A stretch of 64,000 bases of DNA from Gemmatimonadota bacterium (lineage in GTDB: Bacteria; Gemmatimonadota; Gemmatimonadetes; Gemmatimonadales; Gemmatimonadaceae): NCBI GenBank assembly GCA_016182795.1, contig JACPFW010000005.1, positions 62,001-126,000 on the forward strand, in the 5' to 3' direction. Below are positions 35,277 to 44,516 of the stretch, in pieces; position 1 is the first letter of the stretch, and each line of letters opens with the position of its first letter. A program made the translations under genes and the position numbers. The notes beneath the pieces are model-generated. The model was given only the letters and a program-made list of their open reading frames with translations. It ran no database searches and was not told the DNA's origin.

Positions 35277-36107
35277 GTGTCCAACTCGCCAACCCCGCCC
35301 CCCGACGACCGCACGCTCGACCGCACCGCGCTGGAGCGGGTGCTGGCGCGTGCCATGGAACTGCATGTGCGCGGCGACGACTCGGTGGAAGCGCGGGCCG
35401 ACCAGCTCAGCGAATCACGCGTGCTCGAGATCGCGCGCGAGGTAGGCATCGCCCCCGAGTCGGTGCGGCAGGCGATCGCCGAGGAGCGCGCCCGCGCGCC
35501 CCTGTCCGTGGCCCAGCGCGAGAGTGACGCGCAACTGAACGACCCAACGGTGTCGGCCGCACGCGTTGTGCCCGGCGCGCCGGCCGACCTGCTCGGTCGC
35601 CTCGAGGCCCTGTTGGCGCGCGAGGAGTCGCTGGGTGTGATTCGGCGCTATCCGGACCGTTTGGTGCTCGAACCCAAGCGGGGCGTCATCGACCAGATTG
35701 CGCGCGCCGTGGATTTTGGCGGCAAGGGGTACTACCTGACACGGGCCACTGAAGTGGTGGTGAGCGTGGGCGGCGTCGACGCGCGTCGCACGCATGTGGC
35801 GCTGGCCGCCGATCTGAGCCGCGCCCGCAAGAGCTATACGGTGACGACGGCGGTGCTGGTGGTGATCGGCGCGCTCGTCGGCCTGCCGGCGGCGATTCTC
35901 ACGGTGCTCCCGTGGCTGGCCGTGGTGCCGCCGCTCGTGCTGGGCGGCATCAGCTGGGTGTGGACGCGCAGCGCGTGGCGCGCACTCCGCCGACAGGCGG
36001 TGGTCTCGCTGGAGCGGCTGCTCGACCGGCTCGAGTTTCCCGACAAGCCGTCGCCCGGCCAGCAGTTGATAGACGGACTGACGAGGAGTCTGCTCCCGCC
36101 CAAGTAG
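35277..36107 (+). CDS. Membrane protein with N-terminal helical domain, unknown function
   Basis: 276 residues. The first 65 residues are helical (LDRTALERVLARAMELHV, VLEIAREVGIAPESVRQAI) and resemble a helix-turn-helix of the kind found in N-terminal regulatory tails. A central soluble region follows, then two transmembrane helices (about 185-230: VTTAVLVVIGALVGLPAAIL and LAVVPPLVLGGISWVW) and a short basic C-terminus. Start GTG at 35277, three bases after the preceding stop. The helical N-terminus would be cytoplasmic. Confidence 0.55.
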   Translation: MSNSPTPPPDDRTLDRTALERVLARAMELHVRGDDSVEARADQLSESRVLEIAREVGIAPESVRQAIAEERARAPLSVAQRESDAQLNDPTVSAARVVPGAPADLLGRLEALLAREESLGVIRRYPDRLVLEPKRGVIDQIARAVDFGGKGYYLTRATEVVVSVGGVDARRTHVALAADLSRARKSYTVTTAVLVVIGALVGLPAAILTVLPWLAVVPPLVLGGISWVWTRSAWRALRRQAVVSLERLLDRLEFPDKPSPGQQLIDGLTRSLLPPK

Positions 36108-36169
36108 TCCGTCCGGCCGCGCGCGGCGCCACATCGCGGCGCCGGTGGCCGGAGCGCCCGTGCGTCCGG

Positions 36170-36182
36170 TAGATTTGCGCTT
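36170..36182 (+). promoter_or_regulatory. -10-like box for a leaderless transcript (squalene synthase)
   Basis: TAGATT (36170-36175) lies seven bases before the ATG at 36183. No Shine-Dalgarno sequence lies between. Confidence 0.4.
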
Positions 36183-37235
36183 ATGTCCACCGCCGATTCT
36201 CCCGCGCGCATTCGCGAGGCCGAGCGCTTTGGCCGCGAGATCCTGCCGGCGGTGTCGCGGACGTTCGCGCTCTCGGTGCAGCTGCTGCACGGCGAACTCG
36301 GCCGGTCGGTGCTCTGCGCCTATTTGCTCTGCCGCATCGCCGACACGATTGAGGACGACGGCCACGCCGCGCCCGACGAGAAGGTGCGTCTGCTCGGGGA
36401 GTTCGTCGCGGCGCTCGACGATGCGGCCGCGGCCGACGCCTTTCCGGCGCGCGCGGCGCATATCACCGGCGACGCCGCGCACGTGGAGCTGCTGCGGCGC
36501 ACGGACGTGGTGGCCGTGCTGTTCCGCTCGCTGCCCGCCGGCTCGCGGGCGATTGTCGCGCGGTGGGTGGGCGAGATGGGGCGCGGCATGGCCGAGTTCA
36601 CGCACCGGCATCCGGACGGCCTTCGCATTCAGACGGTGGAGGAGTACCGCGAGTACTGCTATTACGTGGCCGGCACGGTGGGGTGCATGCTGACCGAGCT
36701 GTGGCGTGAGCACGGACACGTGCCGGCGGCGCGCTATGAGGCGTTGTGGTCGCGCTGCACCTCGTTTGGAGGGGCATTGCAAACGGTGAACATCCTCAAG
36801 GACATCGCGTCCGACGCGGAGCGGGAGAACGCCATCTACGTGCCGGAGCAGACGCTGCGCGCGCATGGCGGGTCGCAGGCGACGTTGCTGGATCCGGCGC
36901 ACCTCGCCGCCAACCGTGCGGCGGTCGGAGAGTTCATCACGCTGGCATGGGCCGACCTGGACCAGGCGTTCGAGTACCTGCTGCTGCTGCCGCGCCGCGC
37001 CGTCACCGTGCGCGCCTTCTGCATCCTGCCGCTGCTGTATGCCTACGCCACCCTACGCGAACTGACGCGCAGCGACGCGATGCTCCGTCCGGGCGGCGTG
37101 GTGAAGATCTCGCGCGGAGAGGTGCGGGCGCTGATGATCGCCGGGCTCGCCGCGCTGCCGAGCAACGCGCTGCTGCGCCGTCTCGTGGCGGTCGTCCGCG
37201 CGCGCCCCTTCACGCCGCTTCCGTCCTCGTCGTAA
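36183..37235 (+). CDS. Squalene synthase (squalene/phytoene synthase family)
   Basis: 350 residues, all-alpha prenyl-condensing enzyme. First Asp-rich motif DTIEDD in YLLCRIADTIEDDGH, second in VNILKDIASDAE. The segment YCYYVAGTVGCM matches squalene synthases more closely than phytoene synthases. A single full-length enzyme rather than the HpnC/HpnD pair suggests direct farnesyl-PP to squalene conversion, for hopanoid or sterol precursors. The C-terminus is hydrophobic and could attach to the membrane. Followed after 28 bases by thyX. Confidence 0.88.
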   Translation: MSTADSPARIREAERFGREILPAVSRTFALSVQLLHGELGRSVLCAYLLCRIADTIEDDGHAAPDEKVRLLGEFVAALDDAAAADAFPARAAHITGDAAHVELLRRTDVVAVLFRSLPAGSRAIVARWVGEMGRGMAEFTHRHPDGLRIQTVEEYREYCYYVAGTVGCMLTELWREHGHVPAARYEALWSRCTSFGGALQTVNILKDIASDAERENAIYVPEQTLRAHGGSQATLLDPAHLAANRAAVGEFITLAWADLDQAFEYLLLLPRRAVTVRAFCILPLLYAYATLRELTRSDAMLRPGGVVKISRGEVRALMIAGLAALPSNALLRRLVAVVRARPFTPLPSSS

Positions 37236-37263
37236 ATTCTCCGCCAACCCCAACACCCCACCG

Positions 37264-37919
37264 ATGCCGCACTACTACACCGAGCCCAAGGTCACTGTCC
37301 TGGCGCGCCCGTCGTTTGCCGAACCGGCGCATCTGCCGGTGCAGTGGCAGGGCGAGAGCACCGACGGCGAGCGGTTGGCGGAGTTCGCCGGCCGGCTCTG
37401 CTACATGAGCCAGCGCAATCCGGCCAGCCGCACCACCCGCGATTATCTCGAGAACATCAAGAAGCAGGGCCACGGCTCGGTGCTCGAGCACGCCACGTAC
37501 TCGCTGCTGCTCGAGGGGATCAGCCGCTCGCTGACGCACGAACTGGTGCGGCACCGCGCCGGCTTCGCGTATTCCCAGCTGTCGCAGCGCTATGTGGACG
37601 AGAGCGAGGCGGCGTTCGTGATTCCGCCGGCCATCCTTGGCGACGACGCGCTGGTGGCGCAGTGGACGGCGCTGAAGCGGCCCGCGGCGTGCTGCCGAAC
37701 TCCACGGAGACCAAGATCGTGGTGACGGCCAATGCGCGCGCCTGGCGGACGATGCTCGAACTGCGCGCCGGCGAGGGCGCGGAGCAGGAGATCCGCCGGT
37801 TGGCGGTGCGTGTGCTGCGCACGCTGCAGGGCGAGGCGCCGGGGTTCTTCTCGGACTTCGAGGTGTACGTCGCCGAAGACCGGGTGGAGTCGGCCCGTAT
37901 CAGCTATCACAAGGTGTAA
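37264..37919 (+). pseudogene. thyX: Flavin-dependent thymidylate synthase, interrupted
   Basis: ThyX makes dTMP from dUMP using FAD and NADPH. The first 137 residues are normal, with RHRAGFAYSQLSQRY (RHR 96-98) as the FAD/dUMP signature. At about 37673 the frame must shift to continue as EAARGVLPNSTETK...ISYHKV, which ends at 37919. Besides the frame change, about 35-45 residues expected between LVAQWTA and REAARGVLP are missing, so this is a deletion of length 3n+1, not a single-base slip. A repeated GCGCTG near 37649 and 37670 could mark the junction. Unless it is an assembly error, the enzyme is unlikely to fold properly. Confidence 0.8.
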
Positions 37920-37941
37920 CCTCTTACGACACGTGAAGTTA

Positions 37942-37972
37942 GCGGGCCGTTCACCTCGGGTGAGTGGCCCGC
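37942..37972 (+). terminator. Terminator hairpin after thyX
   Basis: A 14-nt arm GCGGGCCGTTCACC pairs with GGTGAGTGGCCCGC (37942-37955 with 37959-37972), with two mispaired central positions and a 3-nt loop. No long T tract follows. Confidence 0.6.
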
Positions 37973-38002
37973 GTTGCCATTTGGGGGCTGCGGGCGCGCT
38001 TC

Positions 38003-38077
38003 TGACGGCTTTGACGCGGCTCTGACGCCGGCGTCAGACATTGTTGGCGTTCGACCGTCAAATGGTCGCACTATATA
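38003..38077 (+). promoter_or_regulatory. Promoter and operator region of the BTAD regulator
   Basis: Three TGACG motifs (38003, 38012, 38023) and an inverted CGTCA (38032) form a cluster that includes a perfect 18-bp palindrome TCTGACGCCGGCGTCAGA (38021-38038). Downstream are a GACC...GGTC inverted repeat (38053-38067) and TATATA (38072-38077), with TTCGAC about 16 bases before it as a possible -35. Confidence 0.5.
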
Positions 38078-38102
38078 GGTGGGAAAGGTCTTAAGAAGAC
38101 GC

Positions 38103-38120
38103 CGGCACGTCGTCGTGCCG
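38103..38120 (+). promoter_or_regulatory. Leader hairpin before the BTAD gene
   Basis: A perfect 7-bp stem CGGCACG-TCGT-CGTGCCG ends 12 bases before the proposed ATG (38133). It could limit ribosome access or protect the short 5' leader. Confidence 0.4.
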
Positions 38121-38132
38121 AACCCAGACTCC

Positions 38133-38972
38133 ATGCAACTCCTCCTCAATACGCTGGGCGCGCTGCAGGCGGCGACAACCGACGAACATGGGACCGAGCG
38201 GCTGCTCGGCCGCGGCAAACCTGTTGCCATGCTGGCGTACTTGGCGTGCATTCCCGGGCATCGCGCCAGCCGAGAGCACCTCGCGGCGCTGTTGTGGGGC
38301 GATGTCGAGAGCGAGGCCGCCCGGCAGAACGTCCGTCAGACGATCTGGTACCTGAAGAAGAAGCTCGGCGACGGCCTGCTCGACGTCACGGGCGAGATGC
38401 TCGCGCTGGTGGCACCGTGCACCTGCGATCGCGACGAGTTCATGAGCGCCGCGCGGCGCGCCGATTTCGCCGCGGCGGTGCGTCTGTACACCGGGCCGTT
38501 CATTCCGGATTTCGCCGCGCCGGGCGCCTCGGAGTTCGAGCAGTGGTGCGAACTCGAGCGGCGGCGAGTGATGGTGACGTTCCTGCGCTGCGCCGATGCC
38601 CTGGCGCGACAGTGGCTTGGCGAGGGAAAGTTTCGCGACGCGCAGGAGCTGGCGCGTCGCGCGCGGGACGTGGATCCCATGGACCAGGCCACGTGGCGCC
38701 TGCTGCTCGAAGCGCTGATTGCGGGCAGTGACAGCTTGGGCGCGGCCAGTGAGGCCGAGCATTTCTCGACGTTCCTGGCGCGCGAGGAGCAGGAGCCGGA
38801 CGCCGCCTCGCGCGCGGCGCTGCGCGCCGCGCCACGGTGGCGCCGCTGCCGGGGGACAGCCGGCTCTCCGCGTCGATCGCGTCGGAGCTGGTGGGACGCG
38901 AGTCGCAGTTCAGCCACGTGCTGTCGGCGTGGGAGCAGGCGCGCGCCGGATCGCCGCGCGTGCTGGTGGTGA
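38133..38972 (+). CDS. BTAD-domain transcriptional activator module (N-terminal part of a modular regulator)
   Basis: SARP/BTAD-type DNA-binding and TPR-like module: winged-helix N-terminus (GRGKPVAMLAYLACIPGHRASREHL, ALLWGDVESEAARQNVRQ), then BTAD helices (EFEQWCELERRRVMVTFLR, LARRARDVDPMDQATWRLLLEAL) through about residue 235. After PDAASRAALRA (about 38830) this frame gives nonsense until its stop at 38972. The expected continuation (TVAPLPGDSRL...LVGRESQF) is in the frame of the following ORF, so one base appears to be missing. Start ATG 38133 fits the family; the GTG at 38079 is too near the TATATA box. A trans-acting regulator, probably split or frameshifted. Confidence 0.8.
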   Translation: MQLLLNTLGALQAATTDEHGTERLLGRGKPVAMLAYLACIPGHRASREHLAALLWGDVESEAARQNVRQTIWYLKKKLGDGLLDVTGEMLALVAPCTCDRDEFMSAARRADFAAAVRLYTGPFIPDFAAPGASEFEQWCELERRRVMVTFLRCADALARQWLGEGKFRDAQELARRARDVDPMDQATWRLLLEALIAGSDSLGAASEAEHFSTFLAREEQEPDAASRAALRAAPRWRRCRGTAGSPRRSRRSWWDASRSSATCCRRGSRRAPDRRACWW

Positions 38973-41900
38973 CGGCGGCGGCGGGGCTCGGCAAGAGCCG
39001 ACTGCTGCGCGACGTGCAGGCGCGCCTTCGCGCCTCGCGGGCGCGCTGCGTGCTGGTGCGCGCCAATCCCGGCGACCGCCACCTGAGCGCCGGGTTTGCC
39101 GCCGAGGTCGCGTCGCAGGTGGCAGCGTTGCCGGGGGCGGCGGCCATCTCGACCGGCTCGGCGGGCGTGCTGGTGTCGCTCGCCCCCGCGCTGGCGGCGA
39201 CCTACCCGAACGCGGCGCCGGACAGCAGCGACGGTGAGGAGGCCGTGCGCCGCCGCGCGCTCGCCGCCATCGACTTGATGCGCGCCGTCAGTGACGAGCA
39301 GCCGGTGGCGATTCTGCTCGACGATCTGCACTGGGCGGACGAGCATTCGGCCCGGGTAATCGCGGCCGCGCTGTCGCGGCTCGAGCACGCGCGCGTGCTG
39401 GTGGTGATGACGAAGCGCGTGATGGCGGATCCGCGCGCGCATTTCTCCGGCTTCGAACAGCTGGAGCTGCCGCCGCTCGATCTCGCGGCCGTCAGCTCGT
39501 TCGTGTCGCACGTGGCGCATCTGCCGGCGACACCGTGGGCGGACATCCTGCCGCAGCAACTGTTGCTGGCCACGGGTGGGTCGCCGCTGCTGTTGGTGGA
39601 GACGTTGCATGACGCGCTTGAGCAGGGGTGGCTGAAGTGCTCGGCGGCCGGCATCTGGGAGTGCGAGGATCCGTCGCGCATCACGCTGTTCCTGCGCGAG
39701 GGGAGCGCGGTGCGGCAGCGCGTGCAGCGATTGTCCCCGACGGCGCGCCACGGGCTGCTGGCCCTCGCCATCCTCGGCCGCCCCGTGCGCCTCGAGGACG
39801 CGCGGGCGATGATGGCCGGCCGCGCGGTCGAGCTGGAGGAGCCGCTGGAGGTGCTGGAGCGCGGCGGGTTCATTATGCGTCACGGCACTGATCTGGTGGT
39901 GGCGCACGATGAGATTGCCGACGCGGTGGCGGAGGCATCGAGTGTGGAGGAGCGTCGGCGCATTCACGCCGCCATCGCCCAGGACCTCGCGTCACGCACC
40001 GGGGATGAGATGGCGCTGCGGCGCGCGGCGGAGCACGCCCGCGCCGGCGGCGTGGACGCGGCGCTGACACAGGCGTGGCAGGCGTTCCTGACCATACGAC
40101 GTCGGGCCGGCGATCGTCGAAGCACCCGCCAGCTGGCGGCGGATTTCCTGACGCTCGAGCCCGGCGCGCAGGCGGTCGATCGACTGGTGGCGTCGACACC
40201 GATGATCCGGCGACAGCGCACGCGCTGGATTGCCGCGGCAGGCGTGCTGCTCGCGGCGACGAGCGCGCTGGCGCTCGTGACGCGCAAGCCGGCGCCGTTG
40301 ACGTCGGACTTCACCGTGTGGACGGTGGACAGCGCAACGGGCCACGGTCATTTCGTTGGCGTGCGGCTGCCGCGCGACATGCACTGGGACGACAACTCCC
40401 CCATCGAAGCCGTCGACCTGGACGCGACGGAGTTCCCGACTTTGGTAAAGGGGACGAAGGGTCGCTGGATGCGCACCCCCAATGCCAAGGAATGGTGGAC
40501 CGACATAGTCGATCCGGTGTTCGGCGATGAGAGCATCTTCCTCGATTCGCTCGGCCGGACGTCGATGCCGATGGCGAGCCTTGGCGACGATGCGATCGCG
40601 GACTTCTCACCAGATGGTCGTTTCTTCCTCGGCGTCACCGCGCGATTCGACACACTCACGGACCACTTGCACCTCGTCACGGGCACCCCCAACAGTGGTG
40701 CGCTGCGCCGTCTGACTCTTACGGCGGACTACGACCGCAGTCCGGCGTGGGGCCCTGACGGCACCCAGATCGCGTTCCAACGTCATTTCTACACACGCCG
40801 AGACCCCGATCAGCTGTGCCTCATCGACGTCGACGGCGGCCACGAACGATGCCTCGCGGGATCGCTGGAGGAATCTGAGTCGCTCGTGGGGTGGATTGAC
40901 GAGCGGCGACTGCTCTTGTCCGGCAGGGGCGGCCGGCTCGCGACGTATGACGCCGTGACTGGTGTGCGCACGCCCGTCGACCGGATCCGATCTCTCTCGT
41001 TCGGGACCTCCGGCAGCCTGAGGCTCTGCGAGTGCACGATCGGAGATGGCGGTGTTCCGTCGTTCTTTGTCTTCCCGGCCTCCGACCCCGCGGCCGCACG
41101 GCCTGTGCGGTACCGCGGCAAACCGTTGCGAGGCAGCCTGCGCCATTGGGCACCGCTGTCCGGCGACCGGCAGTGGCTCGACACGCTCCGGCTTGAGGTG
41201 CGACCGACCAGCTATCTCCTGGGAACATCGCACCGGCTGCAAGTGCACGCCGTGCGCGCCAATGGCGCGCCTGCGTGGGTGCACGATCTCCGGTGGAGCT
41301 CACGCGACACCACGGTGGCGACCGTTGACAGCACGGGACTGCTGCGCCCGCAACGCGTGGGGAGTGTCTGGATCGTGGTCAGCGCTGGCGGATGGCGCAC
41401 CGACTCCGCCCAGCTGCGGATCGTCCCAACCTCGTCGCAGCCGGTAGTGGTGGAGCGGTGGTCGGACGGCTGGGATCGGCGCTGGCGAGTCTTCGGCATT
41501 CCATCCGCGACAGTAGTTCGGACAGCACGCGGTTCGGCCCTCCTGCCCAATGGCGACGGGTCGTACGGTTCGGGCGCGTACCTGCTGACTCCGTTCTCCG
41601 CCGCCTCGGGCGCCGGCATTGAAGCGGATGTCAGTCTTCTTGTCACCGGTACCCAGTGGCAAACCCTCGCCTTCGACATCATCGATGCGCGTATGCTCGC
41701 CCAACTACGAACGTGGGACCACCGCACCGGCGACCGCCCGAGTCCGATCAATCCCTCGTGTACGGTGGGCTTCCCCGGCGCGGAGGGCGCGACCTTTCGC
41801 GATAATTTCTCCGTGAGCGGTCGGTTGAACTTCCGTCTCCTGAAAGCCACGCCAACCCTACTCGACGGCTCGTGGCATCGCATCCGACTCCAGTACCTTC

Positions 41901-42109
41901 CCGACGGTCGATGCCTGCTGGCGGTCGACGGCCAGCCGATGGCGACGGTGTTCACCGTGGCCCCGGTCGACAGCGTGACGATCGTGGTGACGGGGAACGA
42001 CAAGCTGGGCGGCCGTCTGATCGTGGGAACGCTCGACGTCTGGAGCGGTGTCCGCGGCGGTGTGGACTGGACCAAGCTCGACGGCGGCGTGGCGCAGCCG
42101 CCGCCTTGA
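38837..42109 (+). CDS. AAA ATPase - transmembrane - beta-propeller - Ig-like sensor module
   Basis: 1090 residues from the GTG at 38837. Order: LVGRESQF start of an AAA/STAND-type ATPase with Walker A AAAGLGKS (47-54) and Walker B ILLDDLHWAD (159-168), helical C-terminal part to about 455, one transmembrane helix (about 465-483, WIAAAGVLLAATSALALV), then an outside part: TolB-like propeller blades (YDRSPAWGPDGTQIAF, DDAIADFSPDGRFFLG), an Ig-like segment (DTTVATVDSTGLLRP, about 825-870) and a LamG-like C-terminus (about 915-1075). With the preceding BTAD module it forms a membrane-spanning transcription regulator. Separate translation from the GTG is possible, but a frameshift at about 38830 is more likely. 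Confidence 0.78.
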   Translation: MAPLPGDSRLSASIASELVGRESQFSHVLSAWEQARAGSPRVLVVTAAAGLGKSRLLRDVQARLRASRARCVLVRANPGDRHLSAGFAAEVASQVAALPGAAAISTGSAGVLVSLAPALAATYPNAAPDSSDGEEAVRRRALAAIDLMRAVSDEQPVAILLDDLHWADEHSARVIAAALSRLEHARVLVVMTKRVMADPRAHFSGFEQLELPPLDLAAVSSFVSHVAHLPATPWADILPQQLLLATGGSPLLLVETLHDALEQGWLKCSAAGIWECEDPSRITLFLREGSAVRQRVQRLSPTARHGLLALAILGRPVRLEDARAMMAGRAVELEEPLEVLERGGFIMRHGTDLVVAHDEIADAVAEASSVEERRRIHAAIAQDLASRTGDEMALRRAAEHARAGGVDAALTQAWQAFLTIRRRAGDRRSTRQLAADFLTLEPGAQAVDRLVASTPMIRRQRTRWIAAAGVLLAATSALALVTRKPAPLTSDFTVWTVDSATGHGHFVGVRLPRDMHWDDNSPIEAVDLDATEFPTLVKGTKGRWMRTPNAKEWWTDIVDPVFGDESIFLDSLGRTSMPMASLGDDAIADFSPDGRFFLGVTARFDTLTDHLHLVTGTPNSGALRRLTLTADYDRSPAWGPDGTQIAFQRHFYTRRDPDQLCLIDVDGGHERCLAGSLEESESLVGWIDERRLLLSGRGGRLATYDAVTGVRTPVDRIRSLSFGTSGSLRLCECTIGDGGVPSFFVFPASDPAAARPVRYRGKPLRGSLRHWAPLSGDRQWLDTLRLEVRPTSYLLGTSHRLQVHAVRANGAPAWVHDLRWSSRDTTVATVDSTGLLRPQRVGSVWIVVSAGGWRTDSAQLRIVPTSSQPVVVERWSDGWDRRWRVFGIPSATVVRTARGSALLPNGDGSYGSGAYLLTPFSAASGAGIEADVSLLVTGTQWQTLAFDIIDARMLAQLRTWDHRTGDRPSPINPSCTVGFPGAEGATFRDNFSVSGRLNFRLLKATPTLLDGSWHRIRLQYLPDGRCLLAVDGQPMATVFTVAPVDSVTIVVTGNDKLGGRLIVGTLDVWSGVRGGVDWTKLDGGVAQPPP

Positions 42110-42131
42110 TGTCGCGGTGACCGCGAATGCA

Positions 42132-42166
42132 CGACGGGGCGCGAAGCATCGCTTCGCGCCCCGTCG
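42132..42166. terminator. Bidirectional terminator hairpin
   Basis: A perfect 16-bp stem (42132-42147 with 42151-42166) and 3-nt loop, between the convergent sensor gene and the EF-G-like gene. Confidence 0.85.
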
Positions 42167-42186
42167 ACGTTCCGGCGGCGAGGAGG

Positions 42187-44292
42187 CTACTCCTCCACCT
42201 CTTCCTTCTTCTCCTTCTCCGACTCGGCGATCACCTTGGCGGCGGCCTCGTGCGGCATCAGTTCGTACGTGTGGAACTTGTGCGTGAAGGTGCCGCGCCC
42301 CTGCGTCATGGACTGCAGCTTCGTGGCGTAGAGATACAGCTCGGCCTGCGGCACGATCGCCCGCACCTTGGTGCCAATGCCCTCGATGTTCTCCGAGCCG
42401 AGGATCTGCCCGCGACGCCCGGAGATGTCGCCCATCACGTCGCCGAGGTAGGCGTCGGGGGTGAGGATCTCCACTTCGTGCAGCGGCTCAAGCAGAACGG
42501 GGCGGCACTTGGGCGCAATGTTCTTGAAGGCGAGAATGCCGGCCATCTTGAACGACGCTTCATTGGAATCCACCGAGTGCGACGAGCCGTCGAAGCATTC
42601 GCAGATGAAGTCGACCACCGGATAGCCGGCCAGAATGCCGCGCTCGGCGGCTTCCTGCACGCCCTTGTCGACGGCGGGGATGTACTGGCGCGGAATCACC
42701 CCGCCCTTGATGGCATCGACGTACTCGTATCCCTTGCCGCGCGGCGCCGGGCGCAGCTTGACCCAGCAGTCGCCGAACTGGCCGCGTCCGCCGGACTGCT
42801 TCTTGTGCCGCCCCTGCCCTTCGGCGGCGGCGGTCAGCGTCTCGCGATACGCGATGCGCGGCGTCTTGAGCGCGGCCGAGACGTTGAGCGTGCGCTTGAT
42901 CTTGGCCATCGCCACTTCCACGTGACGCTCGCCCATGCCGCTGAGGATCGTCTCGTGCGTTTCGGGATCGTAGTGCGTCTCGAACGTCGGGTCCTCGTCG
43001 TGGATCTTGTGCATGCCGACCTGGAGCTTCTCCTCGTCGGCGTGGACCGCGGCCTTGACCGCATAGGTGACGAGCGGTGGTGGGAACTCGATCAGCGGCA
43101 GACGGACCGGGTGATCCTTGGTGGACAGCGTGTCGTTGGTGTGCGTGTTCTTGAGCTTCGCCACGCAGCCGATGTCGCCGGGGAAGAGCCGCAGCACCTC
43201 GAGGCGCTCTCGCCCCTGCGGCACCGACAGGTGCATCAGCTTCTCGATTACGTCGCGCGTGGCGTTGAAGACTTCCTGTCCGCTGGCGACGGTCCCGCTG
43301 AAGGTTCGGAAGTAGGTGACTTCGCCGACGTGCGGCTCGGTCATCGTCTTGAAGCACAGCGCGGTGAACGGCGCGTTGTCAACGGGATGGATGTCGATCG
43401 TCTTGTTGCCCTCGGCGCCCTTGAACGCCTTCTGCTCTTCCATCTCAAACGCCGACGGCATGAGTTGGACGAGGAAGTCGAGCACCGTGCGTACGCCCCA
43501 CGTGAGCTGGGCCGAGCAGCAGAGCAGCGGGAACAGCTCCTGCCGCTTCATCGCCTGCTTCATGGCGGCCATCTCTTCGTCGCCGGGGATTTCTTCGCCG
43601 CCGAAGAAACGCTCGAGCAGCGCGTCGTCGGTGGCGGCGATGGCCTCGACCATTTCCTGATGGTACTTCTCAAAGCGCGCCTTCTCCGAGTCCGGGATTT
43701 CGGTTTCGGTGTACTCGCCGGCCTTGGTGCCGGCGGTGAAGACGTGCGCCTTCTTGGTGAAGAGGTTGATGATTCCCTTGAGGCCGGCGCCGGCCCCGAT
43801 GGGAATCTCCACCGGCACAACCTTGGCGGTGAGCTTCTCCTTGATGGCCTCGTAGGCCCGATCAAAGTCGGCGTGCTCCTTGTCCATCAGGGTCACGACG
43901 AAGAGCACGGGATCGCGGCGGGTGACCGCCTCGCGGAACATGCGTTCGGTGCCCACTTCGACGCCGGCGGCGGCGGCCACGGTGATGAGCGCTCCATCGG
44001 CGGCGGTGAGGCCGGCGATCGCGTCGCCCTGGAAGTCGAGGAACCCTGGCGTGTCGATGAGGTTGACCTTGGTGTCACGCCACTCGGCATGGGCGCAGCC
44101 CATGGAGATAGAAAAACCGCGCTCGATCTCCTCGGGTGAGGTCACGGTCAACGCGGTTCCGTCCTTGACTTGGCCATGTCGCTTGCTGCTTCCGGACACG
44201 AAGGCGAGGGCGTCTACCAGTGTGGTCTTGCCGCTCGTCCCGTGTCCCACTACCGCGACATTTCTGATTGCCTCGCTCCTGTACTCTTTCAT
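42187..44292 (-). CDS. Elongation factor G-like GTPase (divergent paralogue)
   Basis: 701 residues with the five-domain architecture of EF-G. G1 reads GHGTSGKT (16-23) instead of GHIDAGKT, G3 DTPGFLDF (80-87) instead of DTPGHVDF so the catalytic His is Phe84, and G4 TLMD (134-137) instead of NKMD. Domains III-V are present (GERHVEVAMAKIKRT, GGRGQFGDCWVKL, DAYLGDVMGDISGRRGQI). Such EF-G-like paralogues occur in many bacteria alongside a canonical EF-G, which would be elsewhere in the genome. Role may be ribosome-related but not standard translocation. ATG with GGAGG five bases upstream. Acidic/Lys-rich tail. Confidence 0.9.
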   Translation of the reverse strand: MKEYRSEAIRNVAVVGHGTSGKTTLVDALAFVSGSSKRHGQVKDGTALTVTSPEEIERGFSISMGCAHAEWRDTKVNLIDTPGFLDFQGDAIAGLTAADGALITVAAAAGVEVGTERMFREAVTRRDPVLFVVTLMDKEHADFDRAYEAIKEKLTAKVVPVEIPIGAGAGLKGIINLFTKKAHVFTAGTKAGEYTETEIPDSEKARFEKYHQEMVEAIAATDDALLERFFGGEEIPGDEEMAAMKQAMKRQELFPLLCCSAQLTWGVRTVLDFLVQLMPSAFEMEEQKAFKGAEGNKTIDIHPVDNAPFTALCFKTMTEPHVGEVTYFRTFSGTVASGQEVFNATRDVIEKLMHLSVPQGRERLEVLRLFPGDIGCVAKLKNTHTNDTLSTKDHPVRLPLIEFPPPLVTYAVKAAVHADEEKLQVGMHKIHDEDPTFETHYDPETHETILSGMGERHVEVAMAKIKRTLNVSAALKTPRIAYRETLTAAAEGQGRHKKQSGGRGQFGDCWVKLRPAPRGKGYEYVDAIKGGVIPRQYIPAVDKGVQEAAERGILAGYPVVDFICECFDGSSHSVDSNEASFKMAGILAFKNIAPKCRPVLLEPLHEVEILTPDAYLGDVMGDISGRRGQILGSENIEGIGTKVRAIVPQAELYLYATKLQSMTQGRGTFTHKFHTYELMPHEAAAKVIAESEKEKKEEVEE

Positions 44293-44393
44293 GCGGCCCT
44301 CCGCCGAGCGAATCGGCGTCGCTTAATAGGTATGGGAGCATCCAATTAGTTCAGGCGGACGTCAAGGGTATACGACCCTGACGAGAGTGTAGG

Positions 44394-44516
44394 GGAACGA
44401 GGAGGGGGTAGGGGCGCAGGAAGGAGCAACGGGAGTGGTGAAGGGGGACGGGATGACCTCCCTCCCCGTTCCGCATCTCGGGCCTCGACGCTACGCCCCT
44501 ACCCCCTCCTCGTTCC
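44394..44516. repeat. Foldback element with perfect 23-bp arms
   Basis: GGAACGAGGAGGGGG + TAGGGGCG (44394-44416) is exactly complementary to 44494-44516. The enclosed 77 bases contain further purine-rich and pyrimidine-rich blocks that pair only partly. It sits in the 280-base gene-free stretch upstream of the EF-G-like gene; the rest of that stretch holds an AT-rich segment next to the start and the terminator at 44528. Unrelated in sequence to elements A and B. Confidence 0.8.

Follow-up and report, generated by a model that had tools for sequence, protein, structure and literature searches.

The gene at 38133–42109 of the window—the whole 64,000-nucleotide stretch of Gemmatimonadota DNA analysed here—probably encodes, in its intact form, a one-component activator of transcription that passes through the membrane once, its outside sensor gating a STAND switch that in turn controls a SARP domain. 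Comparison with relatives establishes that a wHTH–BTAD pair, a STAND ATPase, a transmembrane (TM) helix, and a large exported sensor are predicted parts of one chain. These parts are all known singly, and their combination is unusual; no paper with the full architecture was found in the open-licence literature, where absence is not proof.

Two overlapping plus-strand open reading frames, ORF A (38079–38972) and ORF B (38837–42109), hold all of the modules. Their order is an AfsR/SARP-type DNA-binding half, an AAA_16 ATPase, one TM helix, and about 605 exported residues made up of a TolB-like propeller, a bacterial Ig domain, and a C-terminal beta-sandwich. The domain matches of the two ORFs bear out the first-pass annotation, which had placed a BTAD module one frame away from an ATPase–TM–exported part. 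In the upstream alignment, the context ATG-CAR-CT at the probable start is common to three of four same-genus orthologues, the fourth having ATG-CAT-CT; against these four, ORF A is 74–81% identical and ORF B 56–64%. An Rfam search of 36000–44500 gave no match. The features of the gene are as follows.

38133–42109, plus strand: regulator gene (SARP–STAND, membrane-spanning), probable start ATG 38133
38133–38417, plus strand: OmpR/SARP-type winged helix, residues 1–95 from ATG 38133 (Trans_reg_C; AfsR chain; 19 of 19 relatives)
38418–38831, plus strand: BTAD domain, all-helical and TPR-like, to the end of ORF A homology (BTAD profile; 19 of 19 relatives)
38822–38836, plus strand: frame break between ORF A and ORF B (orthologues read straight through; nucleotide alignment to L050)
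38837–40156, plus strand: STAND-type ATPase module and following helical region, with AAA_16 at 38885–39406 (AAA_16; Foldseek)
38975–38998, plus strand: Walker A, AAAGLGKS (GxGK columns invariant in 12 aligned relatives)
39305–39334, plus strand: Walker B region ending DDLHW (DD, H, and W unchanged in all 12 aligned relatives)
40226–40282, plus strand: predicted single transmembrane helix, N-terminus inside, ORF B residues 464–482 (hydropathy 1.96; charge)
40292–41155, plus strand: predicted exported TolB-like beta-propeller (PD40; predicted model; TolB by fold and profile)
41174–41446, plus strand: bacterial Ig-like (Big_2) domain (Big_2; profile matches to LigA, LigB-like, and intimin chains)
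41447–42085, plus strand: predicted C-terminal beta-sandwich, LamG/lectin-like by inference only (beta-rich model, pLDDT mostly high)

The case for a single chain comes from the relatives. Of 60 collected, 58 match ORF B to some extent, much of this confined to the ATPase; the near-full-length matches were taken, together with those from the species-wide scan described below. In all 19 complete ORFs left after duplicate removal, which were picked for matching nearly the whole of ORF B, BLASTP finds the wHTH, BTAD, STAND, propeller, Ig, and C-terminal parts in order and in one frame, with the Ig match insignificant in two (L015 and L065). A twentieth uncut relative, L109 (G018:C198), carries the tested modules in one frame, interrupted by an in-frame TAG ahead of the Ig-like part; the remaining relatives examined are truncated at a contig or locus end. 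The first-pass annotation had supposed one protein, had called for a comparison of domain order, and had named separate BTAD and AAA–TM genes in relatives as grounds for giving the idea up—in 19 of the 20 uncut relatives the modules keep the same order in one open frame. Separate genes are rejected accordingly, since orthologues read through. Three apparent counter-examples, G002:C13 and G305:C172 (a frame for the exported part only) and G007:C49 (a short frame), all run into a contig end. A profile scan with the exported part gave seven rows with a stop inside the match, G002:C13 and L011 among them; for L011 (the G055 row) the frame is open over the whole protein despite the stop listed.

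When the exported part by itself serves as the profile, hits at E <= 1e-20 turn up in 55 of 298 genomes from the phylum, and the strong hits share the same arrangement; hence we do not regard the architecture as a product of chance. Queried with the exported part, 84,980 species gave 19 loci: 17 with Gemmatimonad- titles, one titled "bacterium", and one Candidatus Kuenenia. L067 (CALQGY020000053.1) is an exported-part fragment on a contig labelled Candidatus Kuenenia. The genome of the window itself carries an intact paralogue of the same architecture, L002 (G000:C21:177498-180719), of 1414 aa and about 34% identical.

SARPs are defined in PMC10663231 by the pairing of PF00486 with PF03704. 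ORF A has a BTAD match above the profile cut-off (E 4e-7) and a Trans_reg_C match below it (E 5e-5, 23.7 bits, cut-off 26.2). A chain of the AfsR transcription complex, 8k60_J, stands at rank 50 among the Foldseek matches of the L050 cytoplasmic model, with a TM-score by target of 0.71. The BTAD profile, the sub-threshold Trans_reg_C, and the AfsR chain by fold together give the N-terminal OmpR-type wHTH followed by BTAD that marks a SARP.

The ATPase was noted at first as an AAA module with intact Walker motifs. ORF B matches AAA_16 at E 6e-22, and GLGKS and DDLHW are present, with GxGK and DD unchanged across the 12 aligned relatives; however, the first Gly of GxxxxGKS is Ala here. A stricter motif pattern missed three of the 19 (L061, L063, and L065), all of them among the 12 rows with invariant Walker residues. 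The cytoplasmic half was modelled from the orthologue L050 and folded apart from the exported half (pLDDT 83.6, pTM 0.58). Foldseek ranks the STAND protein 6mfv first and the maltose-system entry 8bob chain C second, followed by Orc/Cdc6, CED-4, and plant NLRs, and in the profile search 6mfv is the only solved chain at E <= 0.001. The fold matches of the ATPase point to a STAND/MalT-type switch rather than to a generic AAA: AAA_16, the invariant motifs, and the fold matches fit a P-loop NTPase with NOD architecture in which the first P-loop Gly is replaced. The likeness to MalT and related STAND regulators lies in the ATPase fold (TM-score by target 0.64 for 8bob chain C, which we take from its fold to be MalT). 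MalT is cytoplasmic and has a LuxR-type C-terminal DNA-binding domain, unlike the regulator here.

Between the two halves there is one candidate transmembrane helix, in agreement with the single helix first proposed. Its flanks carry a net charge of +5 before and +1 after, and in 13 of 13 cases (the window and 12 loci) the flank before the helix carries the higher net charge—a bias that favours the predicted N-in/C-out topology. In the same 13, the Cys count of the exported part is even (4 or 6). Predicted membrane insertion rests on hydropathy, and the best 19-residue window falls below 1.6 in three of the 13 (L050, L062, and L063). A DNA-binding domain and a TM helix in one protein, the mark of a transmembrane regulator, occur in the intact relatives; the window copy is frame-broken.

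Outside the helix, the domain profiles come close to their cut-offs: Big_2 matches ORF B at E 1.5e-4 (22.1 bits, just under 22.8) and PD40 at E 9e-4 (19.6 bits against 20.9). The exported part was modelled with pLDDT 86.7 and pTM 0.78. In the fold search with this model, sialidases and S9 peptidases come first, their alignments long and their TM-scores low, and TolB comes next at 0.44–0.49 by target. The profile search puts TolB first (7e-20), then the Ig domains of LigA, LigB-like, and intimin chains, with the Ig-like stretch at exported residues ~295–385. A model lacking a propeller or Ig-like fold beyond the helix had been set as a refuting test; a TolB-like propeller and an Ig-like fold are what is predicted, and the profile matches agree. 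The early description of about 600 exported residues with a LamG-like end survives as to the C-terminal beta-sandwich, which the model contains; LamG itself is plausible, and the fold and profile searches gave the sandwich no named match. Most invariant columns of the exported-part alignment fall in this sandwich.

Upstream of the gene, between thyX and the start codon, lies an array of heptamers that the first-pass annotation had not anticipated.

38001–38038, plus strand: putative operator, consisting of TCTGACG (38001–38007), TTTGACG (38010–38016), TCTGACG (38021–38027), and an inverted CGTCAGA (38032–38038)

Its spacers are 2, 4, and 4 nt, and its direct-repeat units 9 and 11 bp. SARP operators are described as heptameric direct repeats in 11-bp units, and PimR binds three such repeats with 4-nt spacers (PMC5930380); the first spacer here is 2 nt, against 4 nt in PimR's main operator. 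The array is a candidate SARP site that precedes the regulator's own gene. The four-part pattern has one exact match in the window against 0.02 expected, and the core pattern lies upstream of five of six orthologues with at most one mismatch. A search of 12 genomes for the three repeats, allowing one mismatch, yielded 12 matches, of which three are exact; a backward control yielded four. All three exact copies are upstream of the regulator gene, as is one (G008) of the nine one-mismatch matches. The core with the inverted copy, sought in five genomes, is exact in G000, G002, and G010 and has one mismatch in G008, where one unrelated one-mismatch match (G008:C101) also occurs. In G006 the core is exact and the first repeat absent.

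Because the only exact three-repeat copies in the 12 genomes precede this gene, the array suggests putative autoregulation. No further exact site was found in those genomes, so the search gives no target beyond the regulator's own gene, and a scan of 37900–38200 for sigma-70-type promoters found none. It is somewhat unlikely that the heptamers are bound by a different regulator. Such a reading draws on G004, in which neither the core with the inverted copy (genome-wide) nor an array near the gene was found, although the wHTH is alike; it is opposed by the placement of the exact copies and by a layout that resembles a SARP operator. A simple repeat score on the upstream regions did not single out the operator in L053 or L054, and in most of the more distant relatives it showed nothing comparable. 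The palindromic half alone matches in all five genomes, in some little above the reversed-pattern control; its two exact matches in G004 are inside ORFs and were set aside as chance.

The window copy departs from its relatives at the frame break, which had been placed at 38.80–38.86 kb and is confirmed there: homology to the four same-genus orthologues leaves the first frame at ~38.83 kb and continues in the next, with no protein sequence lost. The nucleotide alignment to L050 across the break has gaps totalling only 7 over 267 columns, and the break is absent from all 20 relatives not cut by contig ends. About 1.2 kb upstream, thyX (37264–37919) is itself broken: its sequence spreads over two frames and, set against relatives, is missing about 100 nt near 37671. 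ThyA and a second ThyX were looked for in the 93%-complete genome and neither was found, which leaves thyX as the only thymidylate synthase found. The frame break is likely a local assembly error, since two breaks within 1.2 kb, one of them in a gene expected to be essential, fit such a fault better than two losses. We consider it unlikely that the gene is really and recently broken, as a pseudogene or a two-piece product. The break is present in the assembled sequence, the state of thyX could mean regional decay, and L109 shows that a relative can have an in-frame stop; however, ORF B is open for 1090 codons, both halves are still 56–81% identical to orthologues, and loss of thyX would be costly. 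A programmed frameshift is not supported, because the orthologues read through without one.

ToxR/CadC-type regulators share with the intact protein an N-terminal OmpR-type wHTH, a single TM helix, and an exported sensor in one chain; we know of none with an ATPase between the DNA-binding domain and the membrane. Such transmembrane transcription regulators are surveyed in PMC10269533, the main text of which contains neither "BTAD" nor "gemmatimon". AfsR, the large SARP of Streptomyces coelicolor, has the same SARP wHTH–BTAD and STAND ATPase in succession, and ends in a TPR sensor, whereas the sensor here is exported; the passages on AfsR in PMC10936776 name no membrane part, and "transmembrane" is absent from its main text. 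PimR and other SARP-LAL regulators resemble the present protein in having a SARP domain with a large ATP-binding part and a three-heptamer direct-repeat operator. PimR differs in its 4-nt operator spacers and in activating pimM, not itself, and the passages describing it note no membrane part.

That the protein is nucleotide-gated and carries a signal, as first proposed, we infer by analogy with its AfsR, MalT, and ToxR/CadC relatives. A ligand or envelope signal (perhaps a glycan, a peptide, or an envelope protein) would bind the propeller, Ig, or sandwich part outside, and this would relieve autoinhibition of the STAND module across the membrane, permitting the ATP-bound form. The released SARP half might then bind along one face of the DNA, at the TCTGACG heptamers, and recruit RNA polymerase without a phosphorelay, with its own promoter as first target. 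The NOD and TPR parts of AfsR keep its SARP domain inhibited, and this is lifted when ATP binds (PMC10936776); by analogy, the exported part would take the place of the TPR sensor, with the signal crossing a single helix.

Two other accounts of the exported part were weighed. It might control cleavage, so that the regulator is released by regulated proteolysis and the STAND switch is not acted on directly. Some membrane-bound transcription factors are indeed released in this way, and an FtsH example exists; an unsystematic look at the conserved neighbourhood noticed no protease gene, and the conserved ATPase suggests a nucleotide switch, which makes this account very unlikely. Alternatively, the exported part might be a structural or adhesive envelope module, the STAND–SARP half answering an internal signal, with the membrane serving just as a tether. 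Propeller, Ig, and sandwich folds often serve as binding scaffolds, and a sister group (L022–L024) pairs the same cytoplasmic arrangement with an exported part that looks different; however, the order is retained in different genera, many positions of the exported part are invariant, and we find a mere tether quite improbable.

The sister proteins, of 1013–1075 aa, have a SARP-type N-terminus, AAA_16, a TM helix, and a shorter exported part with shared NW and DGND motifs. Tentatively, they and the present regulator could be members of one Gemmatimonadota class of transmembrane STAND regulators—a fixed SARP–ATPase–TM chassis with exchangeable exported sensors, an NLR/MalT-like switch thrown from outside and acting on DNA, and positive self-control. 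The regulator would join two hitherto separate ideas, ToxR/CadC-type signalling from outside to DNA and the nucleotide switches of STAND proteins (MalT, AfsR, NLR); the bacterial STAND transcription factors named here, MalT and AfsR, respond to signals within the cell. Should the switch be worked through a single TM helix, it would have to be asked how one helix frees an autoinhibited STAND module, and the regulator, with its defined candidate operator, is a system open to test. It also points to a function for a set of large proteins found in part of a little-studied phylum. On the far side of the gene, a convergent elongation-factor-G-like gene (42187–44292, minus strand) adjoins the regulator in all four same-genus orthologue regions.
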